Source: Persephonella sp. (GTDB lineage: Bacteria; Aquificota; Aquificia; Aquificales; Hydrogenothermaceae). From it: DNA of 49,487 nt. Every line of letters begins with the position of its first letter. Position 1 is the stretch's first letter. This document shows, one piece after another, positions 26,598 to 45,968 of the stretch. The stretch is taken from positions 1-49,487 of the forward strand of contig JALSNI010000026.1 of NCBI GenBank assembly GCA_026987075.1, written 5' to 3'. The translations under genes were made by a program, and so were the position numbers. The notes below the pieces were generated by a model. It worked only from the letters and a program-made list of their open reading frames with translations. It was not told the DNA's origin and did not search any database.

Positions 26598-26622
26598 AAC
26601 GGGCACTATGCCCGTTTTTTTT
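26598..26622 (+). terminator. Intrinsic terminator after atpD
   Basis: AACGGGC (26598-26604) pairs with GCCCGTT (26610-26616), loop ACTAT, followed by a run of T residues to 26622. A textbook terminator that closes the six-gene ATP synthase operon. Confidence 0.93.
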
Positions 26623-26688: not shown

Positions 26689-28668
26689 ATGCTAAGTTAT
26701 GAGATTTTTGAACCTTACTTAGAAGAAATATTTGAGAAATTTTACACAGATGTTCTGTCAAATGAATTTCTCAGGACATTTTTTGAATCAGAAGAGCAAA
26801 TAAAATCCCTCGTAAAAAAACAAATCCAAAACTTTAAGGAAACATTAAAAGAAGGGGAAAAGGAGCTATATCTTAGATACTACAATCTTGGTAAGCTCCA
26901 TTATGAAAGAAGAATACCCTTCGTTAATCTGATTTCTGGAGTTGATTTTATAAAGAATGAGATTTACAGGATTTTGATTGAGAAGAATCTTATTGAGATT
27001 TATTTTTTTGAACTTCACGGACTTTTTGAGAAGATAAAAAATATTCTTGCTAAAACTTATTTAGAACTTTCTCTTAATGAAATGTATGTTGAAGTAAATC
27101 CTGAATACAAAGAGTATCCTTTTTTTAATCATCATTATAACTGGTTGTTGAAGTTAAAGCATGTAATACATTCTAAAGATAGGAATAAAATCCCAGAACT
27201 TGATGCATATAACTGTCAGCTTGGTAGATGGTTAAAAAGTAATGAGTTTAAGTTTATATGTGGAGATAATGAAAAATGCAAGATAATTAACGAGATACAT
27301 GAACTTATTCATAATACAGCGAAAAGTCTGGTTTTTTATGTTTTTCAGGAAAGGTATGTGGAAGGATACCTCCTTTTTAAAACCCTTAATGGATTGTCTT
27401 TGAAGATATTAAACGAACTTTATGAAACATATCTTTCTTATGTTAATAATAGAGAAGAGCGTTTTCTTTATTTCCTTTCAGAGGAATTGAAGAATACAAA
27501 GTCAGGAAACATTACAGTTGTTAATGTGAAAAGGTTAAAAGCAATTAATGAAATATACGGTAAAGAAACAGGAGATTTTATTTTAGAAAAGATAGAACAG
27601 TTAATAAAGAAAAATTTTTTGAAAAAGAATGAGATAGTAACAAGAGGTATCTCAGGAGAGTTTTTTGTATTCACAGATACAGAATATACAAAAAGATTTA
27701 AAGAAAGGCTTCTAAAAATTAAAAACTTTATTGAGCAGTATGAAGGATTTCCTGTAAAAGTAAAGGTCTATATAGGCTCTATATTTTTACCAGAAAATCT
27801 TTCTTTGCTCCCAGAAGAAATCAGGAAGATGATATCTATCGTAAAACAAAAAGCAAAGGATAATATGGACTTCTACATTGCGGAAAAGGAAGAAGTGGAA
27901 CGGGAAATAATACCTTCAGTAAGCATAAAATTTAAAGATATATCTTTTATCAGTGATGCAATTGCTGAGGAAAGAGTAGATGTATTTTTACAACCTATCG
28001 TTAATCTTAAACTTGGTGATATTTATGGATATGAAGCTCTTGCAAGATTAGAAAGAGATGGGAGTATAATATCAGCAGGAGCTTTCCTTGAGATAATACA
28101 CAAGTTAGACTTAACTGTTGACCTTGATAGGATTGTTTTGAAGAAACTGTCAAAATACACAGATAAACTGGGAAATATCACAAGAAATTTGTTCGTTAAT
28201 GTTGATTCTAAGTCTTTAAGAACAGAAAACTACATAGAGATTTTAGTAGATTTGAGTAAGAAGTTTGAAAGAGAGAATATAAAATTAATTATGGAGCTGA
28301 CAGAACATTCCCTTTTAGGAAATGTTGAGGTAATAAAATTTCTTAACGAAGAGTTTGGTATAAGATTTGCTGTTGATGACTTTGGGACAGGTTATTCTTC
28401 ACTAAAAACAGTTATAGACCTTGCAGATTCAGGACTTATAGAGGTTTTAAAAATAGATGGAGAGCTTGTAAAAAGTATCACATCTTCACAGAAAAGCAGA
28501 AAAATAGTAAGAATGATTGCTTCAATGTCCAAAAATCTTAACGCAAAAACAGTTGCTGAGTTTTTAGAAAATTCGGAAATTATAGCTCTCGTAAGGGAGA
28601 TGGGTATAAATTACGGACAGGGTTATGCCCTGGGAAAACCTCAACCTATTGACCAGCTTCTCTCCTGA
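26689..28668 (+). CDS. Globin-sensor / CZB / degenerate GGDEF / EAL protein (c-di-GMP phosphodiesterase)
   Basis: 659 residues in four parts. Residues 1-130 resemble a globin-coupled sensor: helical, with NLGKLHYERRIPF, whose H71 could be the proximal haem ligand. Residues 148-208 match the CZB zinc-site pattern: H149xxW152, C176-Q-L-G-x-W181, H204xxxH208, with the expected gaps of 23 and 22 residues. Residues 270-400 are a GGDEF domain whose motif reads ISGEF (321-325), so cyclase activity is doubtful. Residues 425-659 are an EAL domain with E449-A-L, N504, E536/TE539, D563-D564-FGTGYSS, K588, E624 and Q644 all present, so phosphodiesterase activity is expected. It is soluble. The 3' end overlaps convergent tsaD by 23 nt. 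The globin call is the least certain part. Confidence 0.85.
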   Translation: MLSYEIFEPYLEEIFEKFYTDVLSNEFLRTFFESEEQIKSLVKKQIQNFKETLKEGEKELYLRYYNLGKLHYERRIPFVNLISGVDFIKNEIYRILIEKNLIEIYFFELHGLFEKIKNILAKTYLELSLNEMYVEVNPEYKEYPFFNHHYNWLLKLKHVIHSKDRNKIPELDAYNCQLGRWLKSNEFKFICGDNEKCKIINEIHELIHNTAKSLVFYVFQERYVEGYLLFKTLNGLSLKILNELYETYLSYVNNREERFLYFLSEELKNTKSGNITVVNVKRLKAINEIYGKETGDFILEKIEQLIKKNFLKKNEIVTRGISGEFFVFTDTEYTKRFKERLLKIKNFIEQYEGFPVKVKVYIGSIFLPENLSLLPEEIRKMISIVKQKAKDNMDFYIAEKEEVEREIIPSVSIKFKDISFISDAIAEERVDVFLQPIVNLKLGDIYGYEALARLERDGSIISAGAFLEIIHKLDLTVDLDRIVLKKLSKYTDKLGNITRNLFVNVDSKSLRTENYIEILVDLSKKFERENIKLIMELTEHSLLGNVEVIKFLNEEFGIRFAVDDFGTGYSSLKTVIDLADSGLIEVLKIDGELVKSITSSQKSRKIVRMIASMSKNLNAKTVAEFLENSEIIALVREMGINYGQGYALGKPQPIDQLLS

Positions 28669-41678: not shown

Positions 41679-43373
41679 ATGAGGGCATCTTCCTACTTTA
41701 TTCCAACTCTAAAGGAAGCACCTGCTGAGGCAGAGGTTCCCAGTCATATATTTCTAATCAGAGGAGGTTTTATAAGACAGTTAGCAGCAGGATTATACGA
41801 ATATTTACCTTTAGGATACAGGGTTTTAAAAAAGATAGAAAACATAGTGAGAAAACATATGGACAGGGCTGGAGCTCTTGAAGTTTTACTGCCGATTTTA
41901 ACACCTTCAGAGCTGTGGCAGGAAACAGGCCGATGGGATGTTTATGGAAAGGAACTGTTTAGAGTTGAAGACAGAAAAGGAAGGATGTTTGCCCTTGGAC
42001 CAACCCACGAAGAGACAATCACAGACCTCGTAAGAAAGAATATCCGTTCTTACAAAGACCTTCCAAAAAATTTCTACCAGATACAGACAAAGTTCAGAGA
42101 TGAAGCAAGACCCAGATACGGTCTGATAAGGGGAAGGGAGTTTATTATGAAAGATGCCTACTCGTTTGATGTTTCAGAGGAGATGGCAGTAAAGTCTTAC
42201 AATCTGATGAAAGAAACATACAGAAAGATATTTGATGAGCTTGGACTTGACTACCTTATGGTTGAGGCTGATACAGGAGCAATAGGAGGGAAATACTCCC
42301 ACGAATTTGTAGTGAAGGTTCCAAATGGTGAAGCACATATCGTTTACTGTGAAAAATGTGGTTATGCTGCAAATGTTGAGGCAGCAAAGTATGAGTTTGA
42401 GCTTGATAAACTACCTCCAGAGGAAGAAAAACCTTTAGAGAAAGTTCACACTCCAGGTGTTTCATCTGTTACAGATGTGGCACAGTTTCTCGGTGTTGAT
42501 GAAAAGAAGATAGTTAAAACGCTGGTGTATATATTAGATGATGGAACAGCTGTTGCAGTTCTTATCAGGGGAGATAGAGAGCTGAATGAGACAAAGCTGA
42601 TAAACTACTTCAATGTGTTAGATGCTCATCTTGCTTCTTCTGAAGAGTTAGAAAAACTAAACATAGTTGAGGGATTTGTTGGTCCCATTGGTCTTGATAT
42701 CCCTGTCTATGCAGATATTTCTGTAAAAGACCTTCACAATTTTGTTGTAGGAGCAAACGAAAAAGATTACCACTACATAAACGTAAACATACCCAGAGAT
42801 TTTAAGCCTGTTGAGTTTGTGGATTTCTCAACAGCAAGGGAAGGAGACCCGTGTCCTGTATGCAAAGCTCCTTTAAAAGAAACAACAGGTCTTGAGGTAG
42901 GTCATATATTTCTCCTTGGAACAAAATACTCTGAAGCTATGAAAGCTTACTTTGTAGATAGAGACGGTAGAGAGAAGCCTATTATTATGGGCTGCTATGG
43001 AATTGGAGTAAGCAGACTGATGGCAGCAGCAGTTGAGCAGAGCCACGACGAGAACGGAATTATATGGCCTGAAAGCATCGCCCCATTTAAACTACACATA
43101 CTTGCATTGAACATAAAAGATAGTCAGATTAAAGATGTAGCAGAACAGCTTTACCAGAAAGCTCTTGGTATGGGAATAGAAGTGCTTTATGACGATAGGG
43201 ATATTTCTCCCGGAGCAAAGTTTAAAGATGCAGACCTTATAGGGATACCTTACAGGATAGTTGTTGGGAAAAAGGTAAAAGAAGGAAAAGTAGAACTTCA
43301 AAAGAGAGGAGCAGAAGAAAAAGAAGAGATAAAAATAACTGATGTGGAAGGGTTTCTCCAGAAACTCCAATAG
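41679..43373 (+). CDS. proS: Prolyl-tRNA synthetase, bacterial type with editing domain
   Basis: 564 residues; class II synthetase. Motif 1-2 region: YLPLGYRVLKKIENIVRKHMDRAGALEVLLP and KFRDEARPRYGLIRGREFIMKDAYSFD. An inserted YbaK-like editing domain (about 225-390, HTPGVSSVTDVAQFLGV) removes mis-charged alanine. Motif 3 is GCYGIGVSRLMAA, followed by the anticodon-binding domain. It is the first of three co-directional genes with the GAF-PAS protein and the PilB/GspE ATPase. Confidence 0.97.
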   Translation: MRASSYFIPTLKEAPAEAEVPSHIFLIRGGFIRQLAAGLYEYLPLGYRVLKKIENIVRKHMDRAGALEVLLPILTPSELWQETGRWDVYGKELFRVEDRKGRMFALGPTHEETITDLVRKNIRSYKDLPKNFYQIQTKFRDEARPRYGLIRGREFIMKDAYSFDVSEEMAVKSYNLMKETYRKIFDELGLDYLMVEADTGAIGGKYSHEFVVKVPNGEAHIVYCEKCGYAANVEAAKYEFELDKLPPEEEKPLEKVHTPGVSSVTDVAQFLGVDEKKIVKTLVYILDDGTAVAVLIRGDRELNETKLINYFNVLDAHLASSEELEKLNIVEGFVGPIGLDIPVYADISVKDLHNFVVGANEKDYHYINVNIPRDFKPVEFVDFSTAREGDPCPVCKAPLKETTGLEVGHIFLLGTKYSEAMKAYFVDRDGREKPIIMGCYGIGVSRLMAAAVEQSHDENGIIWPESIAPFKLHILALNIKDSQIKDVAEQLYQKALGMGIEVLYDDRDISPGAKFKDADLIGIPYRIVVGKKVKEGKVELQKRGAEEKEEIKITDVEGFLQKLQ

Positions 43374-43380
43374 GTTAAAA

Positions 43381-44241
43381 ATGGAAGATTTCATTTATCA
43401 GCTTTCAAAGGAGATACTGTCAGACCTGTCTTTAGATAAAATGCTCCTTAATGTATCAGATAAGATAAAGGATTACATTGGAGCAGAAAGGGCATCCCTT
43501 TTTGTTTATGACCCTGAGAGAAACAGCCTTAACTCTGTTGTCCTCCTTGCAGATTCAGGAAAAATAAAGAACGTTCAGATACCTGTTGCAAAGGAGAGTA
43601 TAGCAGGATTTACAGCAATTTCAGGAAGAACAGTGAACATAAAAGATGTTCACGACTTTGAAGAACTCAGAAAGATAGACCCCCAGCTGAGATACCACAG
43701 CCCATGGGTTTACATACCTGACGTAAAAACTACCTCAATGATTTCTATTCCTGTAAAAAAGGATGGAAAACTCCTTGGTGTTTTTCAGGCAATAAACAAG
43801 GAGGGTGGATTTACCCAGGAAGACGAGAAGGTATTAGAGAAACTCAGCCCACTTATAGCAATAGCTATTGAAAGAGCACTGTTTATAAACAGATTAGAGA
43901 TGCTCAGAGCTACTGAAAAAACAATTTTAGATAATATAATGGAAGGAGTTGTGCTTGTTGACCTTGATTTGAGGATAAAGGAGATGAATGCGTCATTTAT
44001 AGAAATGTTAGGCTATAGGTATTCTGAAGAAGAGCTTTTAGGAGCAGACATAACAAAATTTATTCCTGCCCTCAAAGAATACAGAAAAAAGTTAGAGTTT
44101 GCTGTTGAAAATGAGATTTCAGAGGAAATCTTTATAGGTATGATGAGAATAAAAATCATACCTGTAGAATGGAATTGCCTTCACAAAAAGGAGATTAAAT
44201 ATATAGCACTGATATTCAGTTTTCCGGTAGGTAGAGTATGA
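43381..44241 (+). CDS. GAF-PAS sensory protein without output domain
   Basis: 286 residues from the ATG at 43381, 7 nt after proS; an in-frame start at 43342 would lie inside proS and is less likely. The GAF domain (about 5-165) has the ISIPVKKDGKLLGVFQAINK core. A PAS domain follows (about 175-270): ILDNIMEGVVLVDLDLRIKEMNASFIEMLGY. There is no kinase, GGDEF or DNA-binding module, so it is a stand-alone sensor or adaptor. It overlaps the ATPase gene by 4 nt (ATGA), so the two proteins are probably made in step and may interact. The ligand is unknown. Confidence 0.82.
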   Translation: MEDFIYQLSKEILSDLSLDKMLLNVSDKIKDYIGAERASLFVYDPERNSLNSVVLLADSGKIKNVQIPVAKESIAGFTAISGRTVNIKDVHDFEELRKIDPQLRYHSPWVYIPDVKTTSMISIPVKKDGKLLGVFQAINKEGGFTQEDEKVLEKLSPLIAIAIERALFINRLEMLRATEKTILDNIMEGVVLVDLDLRIKEMNASFIEMLGYRYSEEELLGADITKFIPALKEYRKKLEFAVENEISEEIFIGMMRIKIIPVEWNCLHKKEIKYIALIFSFPVGRV

Positions 44242-45968
44242 GAGTAAAGATAAAAAGGGCTTCTCCAGAGGTCAGCTTTATTGACCTGATAATAGAGAGA
44301 CTGGGGCTTTCAACAGAGGAGATTCAAAAGTTCCAGCAAAAGGCAAAAGAGCAGAAGAAAAGCCTCCTTCAGATACTTATAGAGCAGGGATATTCAGAAG
44401 AGGAAATAGCAAAAATAAAGGCAGATTACTTTGGATATAAATTTGAAAAACTGACAAACTATGTTCCCCCTGAGGATATCGTAAACATATTCAGTAAGGA
44501 TTTTCTGAAAGAGAGGTTAATCCTTCCCCTGAGCTATCAAGGTGGAATTCTCAAAATAGCAATGGTTGAGCCTACAGACATTGTTAGCATAAATGAGGTG
44601 ATAGAACGGCTCAAGTCCCACGGTATAGAGATAACAGAGGTGGACATAGTAGTAACAACAAAAAAACAGATATTAGAAAAGATAGAGCTGATTTTTGAGG
44701 AAAAGAAAAAGATAGAAGAGCTTCTTAACATATTAGAGTCAGAAAAAGATATACAGCTTGAAGAGATTGAAACAGAAGAAAAAATAACAGAAAAATCTTC
44801 CCCCATAATAGCCCTTGCGAACAAAATTATTGAAGATGCATACAGAAAAGGAGCATCAGACATACACATCCAGCCTACAGAAAACAGTTCTGTTATAAGG
44901 ATGAGAATTGACGGAGACCTTACAGAATACCTCGTTCTTCCCAAGTATGCCCATGAGCCACTGATAACCCGTTATAAAATCATGTCAAATATGAAAATAG
45001 ACGAAAAAAGAGTCCCACAGGATGCACGGATAAATTTTGAGAGATATAATCCCAGTATAAAAGTGGACTTAAGAGTATCAACTGTTCCCACTATTTACGG
45101 TGAAGACCTCGTTATGAGACTCCTCCTCAAGTCTGGAGCAATATTAGATTTAGAAAAGTTAGGATTTTCTGAAGAACATCTAAAACTCTACAGAGAGACC
45201 ATCAGAAAACCATACGGTATTATCCTCCACGTAGGACCCACAGGTTCAGGGAAAACAACAACCCTTTACTCAGCACTTAAGGAGATAGATACACCAGAGA
45301 AAAAGATTATAACCGTTGAAGACCCTGTTGAGTATACCTTGGGAGGTTCTATAGTCCAGACAAGTATAAACCCATTGGCTGGCTATACATTTGCAAAGGC
45401 GATTAAGGCATTCCTCAGACACGACCCTGACGTTATGCTTGTTGGAGAGATAAGAGATTTGGAAACTGCAAGGATAGCCGTTGAAGCGTCTCTTACAGGA
45501 CATTTAGTGTTTTCTACACTTCACACAAATGATGCTGTCTCAACCATAACAAGACTTGAGGAGATGGGAATAGAGAGTTATCTCCTCGCAGACTCACTGC
45601 TTCTTATATGTGCCCAAAGGCTTGTTAAGAAGGTATGCACAAACTGTAAAACTGAGTATAAACCTTCAAAAAAAGAAGAAATAGTTATAAAAAATGCAGG
45701 ATTTGAGATAGATGAAAATACAAGATTATACAAAGGTCTTGGATGTAAGATGTGTAATTTTACAGGTTACAGGGGAAGAACAGGAATTCACGAACTGCTG
45801 AAGGTAGATGACGAGATAAAAAGTATGCTGATAGAAAGGAGAGGAACAGATGAGATAAAAGACATTGCCCTAAAAAAAGGAATGAAAACCCTCAGGCAGG
45901 ATGCTGTCCTGAAGGCTCTGTCAGGAATAACGACGATTGACGAGGTAATAAGGGTAACAATAGAATAA
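44238..45968 (+). CDS. PilB/GspE-type secretion or type IV pilus assembly ATPase
   Basis: 576 residues. An N-terminal T2SSE/MshEN-like domain (about 14-75, LLQILIEQGYSEEEIAKIKADYF) precedes the motor: Walker A GPTGSGKTT (about 333), Asp box, Walker B VMLVGEIRDLETA (about 398) and His box FSTLHTNDA. A zinc-type CxxC (CTNC) and CxxC (CKMC) pair in the C-terminal part is typical of PilB/GspE. The c-di-GMP-binding RLG motif is not clear in the N-domain. Whether it drives a pilus or type II secretion is undecided, since no other pil or gsp gene is nearby. It abuts convergent ychF without a gap. Confidence 0.9.
   Translation: MRVKIKRASPEVSFIDLIIERLGLSTEEIQKFQQKAKEQKKSLLQILIEQGYSEEEIAKIKADYFGYKFEKLTNYVPPEDIVNIFSKDFLKERLILPLSYQGGILKIAMVEPTDIVSINEVIERLKSHGIEITEVDIVVTTKKQILEKIELIFEEKKKIEELLNILESEKDIQLEEIETEEKITEKSSPIIALANKIIEDAYRKGASDIHIQPTENSSVIRMRIDGDLTEYLVLPKYAHEPLITRYKIMSNMKIDEKRVPQDARINFERYNPSIKVDLRVSTVPTIYGEDLVMRLLLKSGAILDLEKLGFSEEHLKLYRETIRKPYGIILHVGPTGSGKTTTLYSALKEIDTPEKKIITVEDPVEYTLGGSIVQTSINPLAGYTFAKAIKAFLRHDPDVMLVGEIRDLETARIAVEASLTGHLVFSTLHTNDAVSTITRLEEMGIESYLLADSLLLICAQRLVKKVCTNCKTEYKPSKKEEIVIKNAGFEIDENTRLYKGLGCKMCNFTGYRGRTGIHELLKVDDEIKSMLIERRGTDEIKDIALKKGMKTLRQDAVLKALSGITTIDEVIRVTIE

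Follow-up and report, generated by a model that had tools for sequence, protein, structure and literature searches.

A predicted globin-coupled c-di-GMP phosphodiesterase with a CZB zinc motif in Persephonella

What signals would control a c-di-GMP enzyme that carries both a globin and a CZB domain? The question is raised by one gene of Persephonella sp., a member of a microaerophilic, thermophilic vent genus; the gene lies in a stretch of 49,487 nucleotides (contig JALSNI010000026.1), here called the window. The original prediction placed four domains on one chain, and all four indeed score above their Pfam cut-offs: Protoglobin (residues 6–101, 27.8 bits, cut-off 25), CZB (residues 149–214, 31.7 bits, cut-off 29.4), GGDEF (residues 253–390, 34.5 bits, cut-off 23.8) and EAL (residues 421–651, 158.8 bits, cut-off 31.3). 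The gene and its parts are as follows.

26689..28668, + strand: globin-CZB-GGDEF(degenerate)-EAL gene, ATG start, 659 aa
26689..27081, + strand: globin domain, residues 1–131 (Pfam, sensor model, VIA-align)
27118..27354, + strand: CZB domain, residues 144–222 (Pfam at 149–214; phmmer and hhalign to DgcZ)
27355..27495, + strand: long connecting helices 223–253 and 255–269, from CZB to GGDEF (model, conservation)
27496..27882, + strand: degenerate GGDEF domain, residues 270–398 (Pfam, alignment)
27949..28641, + strand: EAL phosphodiesterase domain, residues 421–651 (Pfam, active-site residues)

A chance ORF or a frame artefact is ruled out by the eight full-length orthologs in Persephonella, 53–78% identical to the 659-aa protein over its entire length, and by the opposite strand, which is packed with stop codons. 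The model of the full-length protein has pLDDT 87.7 and pTM 0.61.

The globin domain matches positions 28–125 of the 158 positions of the Protoglobin profile. It thus starts about 27 positions into the profile, by which measure the N-terminal (pre-A/A) segment of a full globin-coupled sensor (GCS) globin is absent or very short. The model of the sensor module (residues 1–270), built from a 44-sequence alignment, has pLDDT 90.2 and pTM 0.85. VIA-align superimposes residues 1–125 on the AfGcHK globin (5ohe_C) with rmsd 1.6 Å over 125 residues and Z 16.7; next, at Z 14.2–16.1, are the globin sensors of Thermosynechococcus, Geobacter and Bordetella, DosC (Z 14.7) and HemAT (Z 14.6). The first 12 rows are globin-sensor domains only (Z 14.4–16.7), the best ordinary globin, with Z 14.2, lying within 1 of the lower globin-sensor rows. 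Foldseek yielded no match to the sensor model at E ≤ 0.001, the best one having E 0.014 and probability 1.00. The sequence profile of the globin part, compared with PDB sequences (E up to 10), gave 32 rows, 28 of them globins or globin sensors and the first 22 such without exception; the best matches are the anti-anti-sigma factor 7o0i and a GCS protein (E about 2e-4).

The original prediction depended on residues 1–140 folding as a globin, with H71 in the context of a GCS-like F helix. Both expectations were borne out: residues 1–125 model as a GCS globin, and H71 is aligned with the proximal His98 of DosC, as well as with the corresponding histidines of 7o0i and 4uii in the globin-profile search. 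By its fold (VIA-align, Protoglobin above the cut-off) and its proximal F8 histidine (the H71 alignments) the modelled region 1–125 belongs to the GCS-type globins, and it is a predicted haem sensor. Two features had not been noticed earlier, namely Y19 at the distal (B10) position and the CX5C pair C191/C197. The former is aligned with Tyr43, which stabilises O2 bound to DosC (PMC5549716).

26743..26745, + strand: Y19, distal B10, aligned with DosC Tyr43 (hhalign; invariant in 9/9 orthologs)
26899..26901, + strand: H71, proximal haem His position (F8), aligned with DosC His98 (hhalign, invariance in orthologs)

With the single sequence of the CZB region as query, phmmer already hits the DgcZ CZB structure 3t9o (E 1.5e-4), and hhalign aligns the region with DgcZ (E 4.6e-5). 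The spacing of the proposed zinc motif, H149-xx-W152-x23-C176 followed by W181-x22-H204-xxx-H208, is exact, and in the phmmer alignment H149, C176, H204 and H208 are in register with the zinc ligands of DgcZ, among them His22 (PMC8262984). With the 3His/1Cys motif present, a Pfam score above the cut-off and invariance in nine orthologs, the domain is a CZB member. The CZB part of the sensor model is a helical bundle, which the structure searches barely probed: the best row listed for its helices is a generic helical bundle, the McpS ligand domain (Z 11.8), and the absence of 3t9o from the listed rows is uninformative either way.

27133..27135, + strand: H149, putative zinc ligand 1, corresponding to DgcZ H22 (alignment, invariance)
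27214..27216, + strand: C176, putative zinc ligand 2 and reactive thiol, corresponding to DgcZ C52 (alignment, invariance)
27298..27312, + strand: H204 and H208 (HxxxH), putative zinc ligands 3 and 4 (alignment, invariance)
27259..27279, + strand: CGDNEKC, CX5C thiol pair C191/C197, outside the CZB zinc motif (invariant in nine orthologs)

The earlier suggestion of two inputs, O2 and zinc/redox, is plausible. HOCl is an unlikely stimulus at a vent. DgcZ is inhibited by zinc and released from this inhibition when its cysteine is oxidised (PMC8262984, PMC8846402). At that, the zinc affinity of DgcZ is sub-femtomolar (PMC8262984), so that the zinc of a CZB domain can be nearly permanent and, by analogy, the zinc/thiol site may set the gain or be structural rather than carry an everyday signal.

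A comparison of the nine orthologs, one of which is the 659-aa protein itself, shows no variation at 239 of the 659 positions. Out of ten histidines only H71, H149, H204 and H208 are among them, and hence the conservation of the sensor-site residues is beyond chance. All three cysteines (176, 191, 197) and both tryptophans (152, 181) are invariant as well. Conservation peaks in the connecting helices between CZB and GGDEF (80% mean pairwise identity) and is lowest in the degenerate GGDEF domain (60%).

Of the 136 Aquificota genomes, 40, belonging to 13 of 30 genera, contain matches to the profile of the module. Seven of the 69 profile matches (a fragment, chemoreceptors and globin-only proteins) were excluded, leaving 62 in the alignment; three of these have a gap at a site, so the counts cover 59 proteins with all sites readable. 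The haem His together with four zinc ligands occurs in 27 of the 59, the zinc site only in 21, the His only in 4 and neither in 7, near-identical rows (L021/L022, L041/L042/L075, L078/L079, L092/L093) being counted separately and the alignment of the very distant rows L077, L082, L084, L086, L092 and L093 being unsure. Among the 36 EAL-type proteins, 14 have both sites, 2 have the His with fewer ligands, 13 have four ligands without the His, and in 7 neither site is complete. The 17 cyclase-type proteins have both sites (11) or the zinc site only (6). Fragments and other proteins (n=6) are divided equally between both sites, His only and zinc site only, two each. Thus, across the Aquificota, loss of the haem His is more frequent than loss of the zinc site.

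The tree of 51 rows (11 of the 62, which were fragmentary, distant or nearly identical to others, having been left out) requires 8 changes among the four site states. More than one of these changes of state concerns the haem His, and the zinc ligands were lost at least twice within the haem-less EAL clade (L002; L028/L039/L041/L042). Both L002 and one clade (L028, L039, L041, L042, L075) are devoid of three of the four zinc ligands and retain the EAL residues checked. In the L002-type paralogous phosphodiesterases the proximal His is mostly replaced by Tyr and the distal residue is mostly charged; their globin region can be aligned by sequence and has no obvious haem site, and some have no zinc site either.

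The CX5C pair has its own distribution in the Aquificota set, being present in 27 of the 36 EAL-type relatives and in none of the 17 cyclase-type ones. It is kept in all seven EAL-type proteins without complete haem-His and zinc sites. It may form a disulfide, provide an extra metal site or be structural.

These data bear on two rival explanations. Zinc could be purely structural: the CZB domain would be a heat-stable relay, O2 at the haem the sole signal, and the cysteines would not be redox switches. The genus is thermophilic, and most relatives in which the haem His has been lost retain the zinc ligands, as expected of a structural element; however, L028, L039, L041, L042, L075 and L002, each without three of the four ligands, indicate that the bundle can live zinc-free. 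From DgcZ the arguments run both ways, as its very tight zinc binding agrees with a structural role, but zinc and C52 regulate its activity (PMC8262984). We regard this explanation as possible, though rather unlikely.

Alternatively, the CZB domain could be the main input, and the globin a remnant or a dimerisation module without gas sensing in vivo. The 21 of 59 proteins that have four zinc ligands and no His, versus 4 with the His and fewer ligands, are in line with this, as is the missing N-terminal part of the globin. Yet neither H71 nor Y19 varies among the nine orthologs, in contrast to the six histidines outside the two sites, which drift; moreover, position 19 is mostly Lys, Arg, Glu or Asn in those EAL-type relatives that have no haem His, so that the pocket residues covary. 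Given this pattern, a globin without a sensory role is improbable.

The output is predicted as follows. The replacement of GGDEF by ISGEF (residues 321–325), already pointed out in the original prediction, is found in all nine full-length orthologs (9/9), and N279 stands at the first metal-Asp position; we take the GGDEF motif and the metal-Asp positions to have their usual significance here. Neither the GG[DE]EF motif nor the metal Asp of active diguanylate cyclases is present, the motif is dead, and because of ISGEF and N279 cyclase activity of the domain is very unlikely. The EAL active site, described as complete, is so: all eight residues checked (E449, N504, E536, D563, D564, K588, E624, Q644), which we take to be catalytic, are present. 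Since the GGDEF motif is degenerate and the EAL residues are complete, the protein is predicted to be a c-di-GMP phosphodiesterase. Many c-di-GMP receptors, unlike this protein, do not have all these EAL residues. That it is such a receptor instead of an enzyme, or a bifunctional or NO/redox sensor like DcpG, which also has GGDEF and EAL on one chain and switches between both activities (PMC10882959), is highly improbable, the more so as ISGEF and N279 speak against the cyclase half of such a switch.

The same genome encodes several relatives. The full-length paralog L002:1480-3501 (G000:C30) is without the haem His and three of the four zinc ligands. L043:13744-15039 (431 aa) is a globin-CZB cyclase with GGEEF and with the haem His and the zinc-ligand residues all present, and L011 is a CZB cyclase whose haem position is occupied by Leu. 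Three observations count against the globin of L043: Pfam does not list it at E 0.1, the Protoglobin scores of the orthologs L050 and L051 (22.8 and 21.7 bits) are below the 25-bit cut-off, and position 19 of L043 is Phe, not Tyr. The globin-CZB cyclase twin is present in 10 of 14 Persephonella genomes (one copy broken, one split over contig ends) and in six of the seven that are at least 90% complete. The phosphodiesterase ortholog is present in 10 of 14 (one broken) and in all seven (7/7) of at least 90% completeness. By this co-occurrence the twin and the phosphodiesterase are a candidate opposing pair.

Several minor observations concern these genomes. One incomplete genome has an ortholog of the phosphodiesterase with two in-frame stops (L015, G008:C14:2890-3675), which is either decay or an assembly error. 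The genome of the window (G000) holds 12 EAL matches and 3 PilZ matches. It also encodes a 297-aa protein (L047:691-1581, G000:C48) in which a protoglobin is joined to a PsiE-family membrane domain; the protoglobin is strongly matched in seven other genomes of the genus. CZB cyclases and CZB chemoreceptors (L043, L011, L044, L045) are found together in it, an exception to the remark in the CZB census that species tend toward one or the other (PMC8262984).

On balance we lean towards the following reading: the 659-aa protein would be a cytosolic dimeric GCS c-di-GMP phosphodiesterase, activated by O2, with a CZB relay tuned by zinc or thiols. O2 would bind the haem held by H71 and be stabilised by Y19, and the dimer interface formed by globin helices G and H would shift. 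The shift would run through the CZB four-helix bundle, which occupies the position of the middle domain in DosC-type sensors, and reach the GGDEF/EAL pair by way of the conserved helices that follow the CZB domain; the dead GGDEF might have a coupling or a GTP-binding role. The EAL domain would hydrolyse c-di-GMP, most likely more with O2 bound. Zinc occupancy or oxidation of C176, and perhaps of C191/C197 too, would set the transmission of the haem signal, and the sister globin-CZB cyclase (GGEEF) of the same genomes would oppose the phosphodiesterase. The polarity of this scheme is borrowed from other GCS proteins, the O2-bound form being the active state of GCS-HD-GYP and the phosphodiesterase-active state of DcpG (PMC10882959). 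While the domains, globin fold, residue correspondence, conservation and co-occurrence are computed, we infer the haem, the zinc, the dimer, the O2 polarity and the redox tuning. The short globin N terminus and the globins without haem His within the same family count against the reading.

The four-domain order had been described as unfamiliar, and this part of the original prediction has to be weakened. Pfam names the middle domain of DosC "DosC CZB-like middle domain", DcpG is a characterised GCS with GGDEF and EAL (PMC10882959), and the CZB census counts EAL-containing cyclases and lists the globin among partner domains (PMC8262984). In At. caldus, Protoglobin and CZB domains were predicted among c-di-GMP enzymes, with no statement that they share one chain (PMC4331095). 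Given the Pfam name, globin-CZB-GGDEF is the standard order of GCS cyclases, here with the zinc site intact and a phosphodiesterase appended. No characterised globin-CZB-EAL protein was found in the open-licence literature.

DosC of E. coli, like BpeGReg and PccGCS, has a globin, a CZB-like middle domain and then GGDEF. Unlike the 659-aa protein, it is a cyclase without EAL, and its middle domain (180–289) lacks cysteine; the histidines there are 223, 227 and 237 only, which do not make the zinc pattern. By hhalign, Y19, H71 and CQLGRW stand against DosC Y43, H98 and ADFGLW, the latter immediately preceding H223/K224 of the pi-helix, which are essential in DosC (PMC5549716). The direct hhalign comparison of the DosC middle domain, represented by one sequence, with CZB is weak (prob 0.6, E 0.099), too weak to identify it as CZB by itself; in Foldseek its structure 4zvc ranks 43rd for the sensor model (prob 0.57). 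Homology of the two domains is Pfam's view, and the data are consistent with it. The Pfam family DosC_2nd (PF21118) is absent from the 659-aa protein at E ≤ 1, whereas DosC itself scores 167 bits; hence the CZB domain here resembles the DosC middle domain by position and is not a PF21118 member. In the available portions of two papers on that domain (PMC5549716, PMC7033309), the words zinc and CZB do not occur.

The other known systems share parts of this design. DcpG of Paenibacillus dendritiformis, whose O2 form is phosphodiesterase-active, differs in that its GGDEF is active (in the NO form; PMC10882959), whereas the motif is dead in the 659-aa protein, in which a zinc-motif CZB lies in between. 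DgcZ (YdeH) of E. coli has a CZB domain with matching 3His/1Cys ligands feeding a c-di-GMP enzyme, but neither globin nor EAL, and its output is a cyclase. The GCS-HD-GYP of V. fluvialis is a globin-controlled, O2-activated c-di-GMP phosphodiesterase, but with HD-GYP as the output and no mention of a CZB (PMC10882959). DosP of E. coli, whose structures are matched by the full-length model, is an O2-sensing GGDEF-EAL phosphodiesterase, but its haem is on a PAS domain (PMC8846402), not a globin, and it has no CZB.

What is new is the candidate cyclase/phosphodiesterase pair, the more frequent loss of the haem His compared with the zinc site, and the CX5C pair in the phosphodiesterase members. 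Globin-coupled cyclases cannot do without their middle domain, the mechanism of which is unclear (PMC5549716, PMC7033309); a naturally occurring variant whose zinc motif is intact makes it possible to ask whether this relay formerly worked as a metal or thiol sensor. The pair, together with the relatives without the haem His, the zinc site or both, is a natural mutant series. One may speculate further that a haem globin acting through a true zinc CZB relay is the ancestral state of globin-coupled c-di-GMP enzymes, that DosC-type proteins are its zinc-less descendants, and that the Persephonella pair is an opposing O2 × zinc/thiol coincidence switch with CX5C as a second thiol switch on the phosphodiesterase arm only; as a whole, this is unlikely.

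The atpD gene is situated upstream of the 659-aa gene in all five Persephonella neighbourhoods read (the window, L052, L053, L055 and L056). In the window the two are separated by a terminator-like site, and hence the 659-aa gene is probably its own transcription unit, apart from atpD; such sites number 2 in the region versus a mean of 1.2 in shuffles.

26598..26616, + strand: terminator-like hairpin and T run, between atpD and the 659-aa gene

In two genus-mates, L055 (L055:4953-6287) and L056 (L056:6941-8161), three genes separate atpD from the phosphodiesterase gene, encoding an Arf/Ras-like GTPase, an 85-aa protein and a Roadblock/LC7 protein, as assigned by a family search on the L055 copies. 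Co-transcription with the ATP synthase operon was considered and rejected, given the terminator-like site in the window and the three genes in L055/L056. L054, from another genus, has no neighbour in common with the Persephonella loci. Due to the terminator-like site, the intervening genes and the unshared neighbours in L054, the neighbourhood is not read as function.

No plasmid relatives of residues 1–260 were found. A single-sequence scan of genome contigs gave 17 stretches that fit the pattern and no relatives among them; a second scan gave two loci, both from Persephonella sp.

Two loci feature candidate c-di-GMP receptors. In L054 (L054:7739-8854, G015) the homologous gene is directly followed by a gene with a PilZ domain, a c-di-GMP receptor type. 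In the window, at 43342-45968, a gene for a GAF-PAS protein overlaps that of a type II/IV secretion ATPase with an MshEN domain; MshEN is likewise a c-di-GMP receptor type, and hence a possible output.
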